Positions 13,540 to 17,110 of a stretch of 49,386 nucleotides of DNA are shown in pieces (the first letter of the stretch is position 1; each line of letters starts with the position of its first letter). Position numbers and translations under genes: made by a program. The notes below the pieces were generated by a model. The model was not told the origin of the DNA, made no database searches, and saw only the letters and a list, made by a program, of their open reading frames with translations. The DNA is from Clostridiales bacterium (lineage in GTDB: Bacteria > Actinomycetota > Coriobacteriia > Anaerosomatales > SLCP01). The stretch covers positions 1 to 49,386 of the forward strand of contig JAGXSG010000029.1 in assembly GCA_018333995.1 (NCBI GenBank). The letters run 5' to 3'.

Positions 13540-14382
13540 ATGGGAAGTCGAGTCGATGCGCCAGCGCTTGCTCGGCAGGCGCTTGCTCGTATCGCCGGCC
13601 CCGCCGTTCGAAGGTGCCGACGTGAGCTCCAGTGGGCCGCTGTAGGCAGGCGACTTGTGTCCGAGCGCTCCGGGCCGTTCGTCCACGTCATCGCGACGCA
13701 TTCGACTCCCCTTATTCGGCCGCTGGCTGGGCTTGAGCCACGTCTGCAGCACAACAAGATCGTGAACCTGCGTCTCGCGGCAGGGTCCTTGGACGGTCTC
13801 GTCTTGCGACCAGGACAATGGTTGTCATTCTGGAGGCAGGTCGGACCTCCCACCCGGCGCCGCGGGTTTGTTGAGGGGCTTGTTCTCAAGCAGGGAGCGC
13901 TTTCTGTCGGTGTAGGGGGTGGCCTATGCCAGGCGACGAACCTGCTGTATTGGATGACTCTTCTTACACCGCTTACCGTGACCGAAAGATGGCGGCATAG
14001 CTACGATGTCTTCCCTGATCAGGGGCGCACACAGCCGTTCGGAAGCGGCGCCACGTGTGCTTGGCCCGCCCTCGACTTGCAGATTCTCAACGACACGGAT
14101 GCGCCATACGTTTTGTCGATTCGAGTCACAGAAACGGATCTGGAGGGCAGCTGGACCTCAAGTCGTCCCGCTACCTGCGACTACCGCATAGAAGAGCGGG
14201 CTCATAGAATCACGCACGACGCTCCCGGACTCTATGTTCGCCACAACGAGCTGTGGCGTATCGCCACAGACCGATTGTCAGGAAACGAGTCGGAGCAGCT
14301 GGTCGCGGTGAACGATGCGTGCATGATGTACTCACCGTTTTTGCCACCAGCCACTCGGAGTGAGGCCTCGTCGTCGCTCTAG
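13540..14382 (+). CDS. VanW family protein
   Basis: This 280-residue protein has the VanW signature: LRPGQWLSFWRQVGPPTRRRGF, then VGVGGGLCQATNLLYWMTLL and ERWRHSYDVFPDQGRT, followed by the GATCAWPALDLQILNDTDAPY segment. VanW proteins occur in some glycopeptide-resistance clusters and widely elsewhere; their biochemical function is unknown. No vanRS/HAX genes are nearby. Just after its stop codon an attC-like left arm (GCGCATCGTG, about 14379-14415) with a TACACT hexamer suggests it was once a cassette. Confidence 0.85.
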   Translation: MGSRVDAPALARQALARIAGPAVRRCRRELQWAAVGRRLVSERSGPFVHVIATHSTPLIRPLAGLEPRLQHNKIVNLRLAAGSLDGLVLRPGQWLSFWRQVGPPTRRRGFVEGLVLKQGALSVGVGGGLCQATNLLYWMTLLTPLTVTERWRHSYDVFPDQGRTQPFGSGATCAWPALDLQILNDTDAPYVLSIRVTETDLEGSWTSSRPATCDYRIEERAHRITHDAPGLYVRHNELWRIATDRLSGNESEQLVAVNDACMMYSPFLPPATRSEASSSL

Positions 14383-14459
14383 CACGCGCATCGTGTCGGA
14401 GCGCTCGGCTACACTGAGAAGTGGCGGCGCCACCTTCCCCTCAGGACCGGAGGACCAAG

Positions 14460-14930
14460 ATGAAGGGTAGCAAGGGCATGCCCGGCGTCGGGAGCGTCGC
14501 TCCTCCGGTGGATGCGACGACCGCTACGGGCGAGCACTTCTCTCTTGCAGAGCACGCGGGAAAGTGGGTGGTGTTGTTCTTCTACCCGCGCGCCAACACA
14601 CCGGGTTGAATTCATGAGTCGAAGGACTTCCAGGCGCACCTGCCTGCGCTGAAGTCCCTGAACGCCCAGGTCGTGGGTGTGAGCGCAGACAAGCCCGAGT
14701 CACAGATCAAGTTCATCGAGAAGTACGGCCTGACCTATCCGATGGTTTCCGATACCGGCAAGCAGGTCATCGGCGCTTATGGTGCCCGAGCAGTGCTCGG
14801 TTTAGCCGCGAAGCGATCCACGTTCCTCATCGATCCTGAAGGACGTGTCGCCCACGTGTGGCCGTATGTGAAGATTGACGGACACGCAGAGGACGTGGTC
14901 AACACCATCAGGGAGCTGTCGGTGCGGTGA
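14460..14930 (+). CDS. peroxiredoxin (BCP type) with in-frame UGA at the peroxidatic residue: probable selenoprotein
   Basis: Two stretches in the same frame, joined by a single TGA at 14607-14609, give a 156-residue bacterioferritin-comigratory-type peroxiredoxin: MPGVGSVAPPVD, VVLFFYPRANTPG-U-IHES, KSLNAQVVGVSADKPESQ, KYGLTYPMVSDTGKQV and KRSTFLIDPEGRVAH. The UGA (residue 50) stands exactly where the catalytic Cys of TPGC is expected, so selenocysteine is the simplest reading. There is no Cys five residues later, so it would be a one-Sec enzyme. GGAGG precedes the ATG. The alternative, a nonsense mutation of the Cys codon, is less likely because all of the remaining frame is intact. Confidence 0.8.
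14607..14643 (+). promoter_or_regulatory. candidate bacterial SECIS downstream of the UGA
   Basis: After the UGA two small hairpins can form: GAGTC (14616-14620) with GACTT (14625-14629) around loop GAAG, and CAGG (14631-14634) with CCTG (14639-14642) around loop CGCA. The apical loop of the first begins with G, as bacterial SECIS loops usually do, but lies nearer the UGA than most. Which one, if either, binds SelB cannot be decided by eye. Confidence 0.35.
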
Positions 14931-16385: not shown

Positions 16386-16485
16386 CCTCGGCGGCCTCGG
16401 GCCGAAATCGCTCTCTTGTATGGGAGAAGAGATTCCTCCTTGTCAGGCGACCGTTGGCAATTTGTACACCGCCACCGGGTTCGCG

Positions 16486-16743
16486 TTACTTGCCGCCGGT
16501 GAGCGTGTCGGTGAGACCGGTCGCGGCTTCGGTAGCCTGGTCGGTAACGCCGCCAAGCGCTTCGGTAGCCTGGTCGGTAACGCCGCCCAAGCCCTCCGTT
16601 ACGCCGCCAAGCGCTTCGGTAGCCTGCGTGGCCACGTCGCCCAAGCCGGCCGACTCGGCTGCCGTCGTCGCAATCTCGCCAATGTTTCCGAGCGCGCCGC
16701 CAGCGGCCTCCTTGATCTTGTCGAAGATGCTTCCAAAGGCCAT
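16486..16743 (-). CDS. small alanine/glycine/threonine-rich repeat protein
   Basis: This 85-residue protein consists of imperfect repeats of about 11-14 residues: VTEGLGGVTDQATEALGG and VTDQATEALGG, with DVATQATEALGG before them. It has no Cys, Pro or aromatic residues after the first ten, and heptad-like spacing suggests a long amphipathic helix. A strong GGAGGAATCAG ribosome site supports translation. The matching DNA repeats (CTTCGGTAGCCTGGTCGGTA) are nearly exact, so copy number may vary. It could be a stress or surface-associated helical protein; I cannot assign a function. The plus-strand frames over it are shadows. Confidence 0.65.
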   Translation of the reverse strand: MAFGSIFDKIKEAAGGALGNIGEIATTAAESAGLGDVATQATEALGGVTEGLGGVTDQATEALGGVTDQATEAATGLTDTLTGGK

Positions 16744-17110
16744 CTGATTCCTCCGATACTCGTGCCCCCGCGTGTGAGAGCGGGCGCGTCATCCGCCGGA
16801 CTCGCCGCTTGTCCGGCTGCTGCACCAAGTGTAGACCGGCTGAGCGGTGCGAGGGGCGTCCCGCACACAATGCACATAGCCGCCGAGCGATCAACTTCCG
16901 AGGCGATCATGTTGAGCTTACCCGAAATCGAGTGAGCTCCGACCGTTGCCGCGCTTTGTAGGCAGTACCGGCATCGGCTCCGTTTGGGTTGAACTGGTGT
17001 TGCGTGCAGCATTTGCCCGTCGAAGTCGCGGACACCATACTCGTCATACAGGACGTATAGGGTCGGCCAAGCAGTGAATATGTCTGCACAGGCAGGCACG
17101 CAAGAGAGGG
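16744..17110. other. 367-bp gap without a recognised gene
   Basis: Open frames here are short and look like shadows. The leader of the small repeat protein is on the left and that of the DUF2200 gene on the right. A GTTGAAC at about 16988 resembles an attC right core but has no partner arm. I see no other signal. Confidence 0.5.

Follow-up and report, generated by a model that had tools for sequence, protein, structure and literature searches.

The gene at 14460-14930 on the forward strand very probably encodes a PrxQ/BCP-type peroxiredoxin (Prx) that decodes an in-frame UGA, at 14607-14609, as selenocysteine (Sec). Read from the sequence, Sec insertion at this codon appears close to certain, and the product is predicted to act as a peroxidase. 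The window analyzed, that is, the entire 49,386-nucleotide stretch of DNA, corresponds to contig C29 of a 1.95-Mb genome that is 98.9% complete. The relevant features are as follows.

13540-14382: VanW-domain gene (PF04294, 2.2e-36), the immediate upstream neighbor of the peroxiredoxin gene.
14447..14459, plus strand: ribosome-binding region CCGGAGGACCAAG, followed by the ATG (sequence).
14460..14930, plus strand: predicted Sec-containing PrxQ/BCP-type peroxiredoxin, 156 amino acids plus stop (PF00578, AlphaFold, Foldseek, orthologues).
14607..14609, plus strand: UGA codon, predicted selenocysteine U50 at the peroxidatic position (TGA in all orthologues; alignment A1).
14622..14624, plus strand: AAG codon, Lys55, at the resolving-Cys position of canonical PrxQ (residue comparison).
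14624..14657, plus strand: SECIS-like hairpin (RNA fold and synonymous-recoding test, Sec clade versus Cys homologues).

The reading frame starts with the ATG at 14460, closely preceded by GGAGG, which bears out the good ribosome site claimed in the original prediction, and terminates with the TGA at 14928-14930. It contains the single in-frame TGA at 14607-14609, with no other stop and no frameshift. The match of the read-through product to PF00578 (AhpC-TSA) spans the full domain (residues 10-132, E 6.5e-37), and the score of 126.7 bits against a cut-off of 26 identifies the product as an AhpC/TSA (Prx) domain protein. U50 lies within the peroxidatic motif PRANTPGU, which conforms to the PxxxTxxU pattern of Sec peroxiredoxins (COG1225/PF00578). 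The UGA is thus located exactly at the peroxidatic Cys with the frame intact on both sides, as had been proposed. In the Prx active site, the residues Thr47 and Arg119 are invariant, and Pro43 is also found around U50. The AlphaFold model of the 156-residue protein has a mean pLDDT of 92.7; its top Foldseek matches are BCP/PrxQ structures (TM 0.81-0.89) and the best HMM matches are likewise BCP/PrxQ, which places the protein in the PrxQ fold. The NCBIfam PrxQ/BCP equivalog cut-offs are not reached (NF053650, 127 of 260 bits; NF006960, 87 of 140 bits).

The predicted protein contains no Cys residues. Position +5 from U50, which holds the resolving Cys in 2-Cys PrxQ proteins, is occupied by Lys55, in agreement with the earlier statement that the Cys five residues on is absent. 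The canonical PrxQ/BCP proteins (Xanthomonas 5iiz and 3gkm; Sulfolobus Bcp1 3drn) share the fold, the length and the active-site residues with this protein, whereas the latter has Sec in place of Cys and lacks a resolving Cys at +5 or elsewhere.

In the proposed mechanism, the UGA would be read as Sec by SelB and tRNA-Sec, aided by the hairpin. The Sec selenolate, helped by Thr47 and Arg119, would then attack H2O2 or an organic hydroperoxide and turn into selenenic acid. Regeneration of the enzyme would fall to a thiol from outside the protein, be it thioredoxin, a protein of the glutaredoxin/mycoredoxin type or a small thiol, by way of a mixed selenenyl sulphide; the catalytic cycle would follow the 1-Cys mechanism, with one Sec instead. 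An external reductant would be required because the protein has no Cys of its own. Peroxide reduction via selenenic acid is expected from such a site by established Prx chemistry. As the cycle cannot close within a protein devoid of a resolving Cys, the product could instead be a Sec thiol-disulphide oxidoreductase or a peroxide sensor. We consider this unlikely: the protein retains PxxxTxxU as well as the Arg that is invariant in peroxidatic Prx sites, the fold matches PrxQ, and neither a CxxU nor a UxxC motif is present in the peroxiredoxin. Moreover, homologues that lack the resolving Cys also exist among the Cys proteins; 34 of the 53 examined have a Cys at that position.

The same genome harbors a second Sec peroxiredoxin (L166:1121-1924; G000:C3:103120-103923), an AhpC/TSA domain with FTPVU. 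It ends in a C-terminal glutaredoxin domain (CPDC), and so has a thiol of its own. Many genomes of the order contain similar matches, each with one TGA.

By its gene content, the genome is equipped to decode UGA as Sec, because selA, selB, selD and tRNA-Sec are all present. SelA, SelB and SelD scored 605, 380 and 364 bits, respectively, each over its curated cut-off, and their genes form one cluster at C2:5415-9790. The tRNA-Sec at C19:548 scored 74 bits, also over the cut-off, and was identified by ARAGORN as tRNA-SeC(UCA). The selD gene itself has a Sec codon (UGA) in the classic GUAAK motif. Hence all four components named in the original prediction, selA, selB, selC (tRNA-Sec) and selD, were found in the same genome. 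UGA might alternatively be read as another amino acid under a variant code, or be subject to unspecific read-through, with the hairpin serving some other purpose. Low levels of UGA read-through without selenium occur in many bacteria. However, TGA also terminates this very gene and therefore UGA is not a general sense codon; the in-frame TGA is located at the redox residue, with Cys as the alternative; and tRNA-Sec(UCA) and selAB are present in the genome. Together with an additional RNA structure restricted to the Sec members, described below, these observations make such decoding highly improbable, and the variant code was rejected on the grounds of the terminal TGA, the Sec machinery and the limitation of the structure to Sec members.

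Orthologues with 54-68% identity were found in 33 other genomes of the order (149 related genomes searched), and every one of them has exactly one internal stop, a TGA, a recurrence far above what chance would give. In the detailed set of 30 Sec genes, which includes this copy, the in-frame TGA is at the identical site in 30/30. The possibility that relatives would carry TGT or TGC here, with decay elsewhere in this copy, is thus not borne out: all carry TGA at this codon and this copy is not decayed. Outside the clade, the nearest homologues have at most 46% identity and belong to alphaproteobacteria, corynebacteria and acidobacteria; they are Cys proteins. In the maximum-likelihood tree, a branch with 99/96 support separates the Sec clade from the rest, and the branch leading to this copy is long (0.53). 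The dN/dS of this copy, calculated over the codons flanking the UGA on either side, is 0.16-0.32, which indicates purifying selection. The long branch and the unusual neighborhood of this copy could raise the suspicion that the TGA is a sequencing error, or a nonsense mutation in a PrxQ gene undergoing decay. Nevertheless, independently assembled relatives share the TGA codon, no other stop or frameshift interrupts the gene, dN/dS is low on either side of the UGA, and the hairpin is retained. This explanation was rejected, as the TGA is common to the orthologues in 33 other genomes, and its probability is negligible.

As to the composition of the clade, 27/30 members have no Cys; the remaining three have a Cys beside the Sec (UCHEA), and one of these also has a second Cys near its end. 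Residue +5 is Lys in 26/30 and Cys in none of the 30. The one-Sec reading proposed for this locus also holds, as the resolving Cys is absent throughout the clade. In a GTDB species scan, the orthologue holders were Coriobacteriia/Actinomycetota MAGs, one of which bears the name Anaerosomatales; from these labels and PMC9686372, the order would be OPB41/Anaerosomatales. By these comparisons, the Sec PrxQ proteins of this Coriobacteriia order form a single clade that is almost devoid of Cys and was seen here in no other group. The chances are evenly balanced that this clade is a separate, single-origin, Cys-free "1-Sec" PrxQ subfamily, characteristic of OPB41/Anaerosomatales, that depends wholly on outside reductants and has its own SECIS type, in which the pairing register of the hairpin would change along with the Ser/Ala codon inside it.

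The hairpin placed just after the UGA by the original prediction was located at 14624-14657. It starts 14 nt behind the UGA and comprises 13 bp, a 2-nt bulge and a 6-nt loop: a stem (14624-14630/14651-14657), the bulge (14631-14632), an upper stem (14633-14638/14645-14650) and the loop CCUGCC (14639-14644), which begins 29 nt after the UGA. The coding constraint was removed by comparing each gene with its own synonymous recodings. For the 51 nt from the UGA of this gene, the MFE is -18.4 kcal/mol versus -10.7 ± 2.9 kcal/mol for 3000 synonymous recodings (P = 0.002). For 17-codon windows whose start lies 0 to 4 codons downstream of the UGA, the RNA is more stable than its recodings in 29-30 of the 30 Sec genes (mean z -1.75 to -2.22), as against a mean z of -0.13 to -0.33 for the corresponding region of 54 Cys homologues. 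Elsewhere in the Sec genes, the window mean z is near zero, the strongest value being about -0.65. When codons were permuted among sequences with the same residue, 0/100 permutations reached the real mean MFE.

The RNAalifold consensus for the 30 sequences is modest (-6.06 versus -5.40 ± 0.15 for codon permutations) because the members use two pairing registers; comparing each single sequence with its synonymous recodings was more informative. Both the register and the loop vary between members, and L028 is without the usual stem. Where the Leu-Glu-Ser segment has Ser (UCN), the Glu codon is always GAG; where Ala (GCY) takes its place, the codon is GAA in 6/9. The Ala/GAA choice might lengthen the pairing with the CUUCCAG strand, a link that is only suggestive because related sequences share such codons. 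Alignment A2, with 11 sequences only, was left out of the pair counts. By its position directly after the UGA the hairpin is SECIS-like, yet neither a search of the genome with Rfam SECIS_1 (RF00031) nor cmscan of the locus gave a match; the model is narrow and matched none of the control genomes, so this result cannot argue for absence. Presumably, SelB binds to the hairpin.

SelA was not seen in six of the 33 orthologue genomes, including G053 (98% complete) and G055 (96% complete). Most of the six are fragmentary, and G065 among them keeps tRNA-Sec. G053 has an intact Sec PrxQ gene, but is without selA, full selB and tRNA-Sec. The gene order that it shares with G041 is interrupted immediately ahead of selA (L172, G053:C3:158900-164949), and unrelated genes follow. 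Possibly, selAB was recently lost in G053, stranding the Sec genes, or the contig is chimeric.

In relatives with longer flanks, the Sec PrxQ gene usually has nth/DUF554/NYN genes on one side and a threonine-aldolase-like gene on the other, each in 16-18 other loci and named by reading the sequence. SelA is on the same contig, 20-50 kb from the Sec PrxQ gene, in many relatives. This copy is instead flanked by the VanW-domain gene and by an alpha/beta hydrolase plus GNAT pair. The context thus differs from that of most relatives and, with the long branch, was counted against the main explanation, as were the missing SECIS_1 match, the variability of the hairpin and the six genomes without selA. 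A "decayed cassette array" next door, as suggested originally, was not substantiated: the 11-21 kb region yielded no family of attC-like direct repeats, and attC core motifs in close pairs were absent from the surroundings of the gene. Imperfect 54-nt repeats at 16508-16648 lie inside overlapping ORFs on both strands within 16420-16935, the minus strand of which reads as a ALGGVTDQATEA repeat protein.

As early as 2005, a Sargasso Sea study (PMC1088965) recorded 43 sequences of TxxU-motif Sec peroxiredoxins (COG1225/Bcp), and the family also appears in current reviews (PMC9312934, PMC13188914). The present protein shares the domain, PxxxTxxU and the peroxidatic Sec with this bacterial COG1225/PF00578 family (PMC1088965, PMC1794560, PMC9312934, PMC13188914). 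Unlike the catalogued family, the clade described here stands alone, with nearly all members Cys-free, in OPB41/Anaerosomatales. PrxU of Eubacterium acidaminophilum (NCBIfam NF040737; Soehling 2001, as cited in PMC9312934) is, from what that review relates, likewise a peroxiredoxin of an anaerobe with a peroxidatic Sec. The present protein scores 47 bits against the PrxU cut-off of 270, and PrxU is a longer family. TPGU likewise occurs, with a residue other than Cys at +5, in Sec PrxQ proteins of other Actinomycetota (L161, L163 and L164). The tree sets these three apart from this clade and intersperses them with Cys proteins, on very long branches that make their placement unsure; because they lie outside the clade, more than one origin of Sec in PrxQ is probable. 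The kind of Sec peroxiredoxin is therefore already catalogued, while its presence in OPB41/Anaerosomatales and its Cys-free make-up are absent from the open-access papers searched for selenoproteins in OPB41, Coriobacteriia and Anaerosomatales, where no report of this clade was found. Selenoproteins are not mentioned where the order's first cultivated members were described.

Standard pipelines would split the gene into two fragments or call it a pseudogene, because no NCBIfam model reaches its cut-off; the annotation is corrected here. The two cultivated strains of the order are obligate anaerobes, yet catalase-positive (PMC9686372), and the predicted enzyme would add a selenium-based peroxide defence to OPB41/Anaerosomatales. 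As a natural Cys-free Prx, it would also provide a clean model for 1-Sec peroxidase chemistry, because no resolving thiol complicates the reaction.
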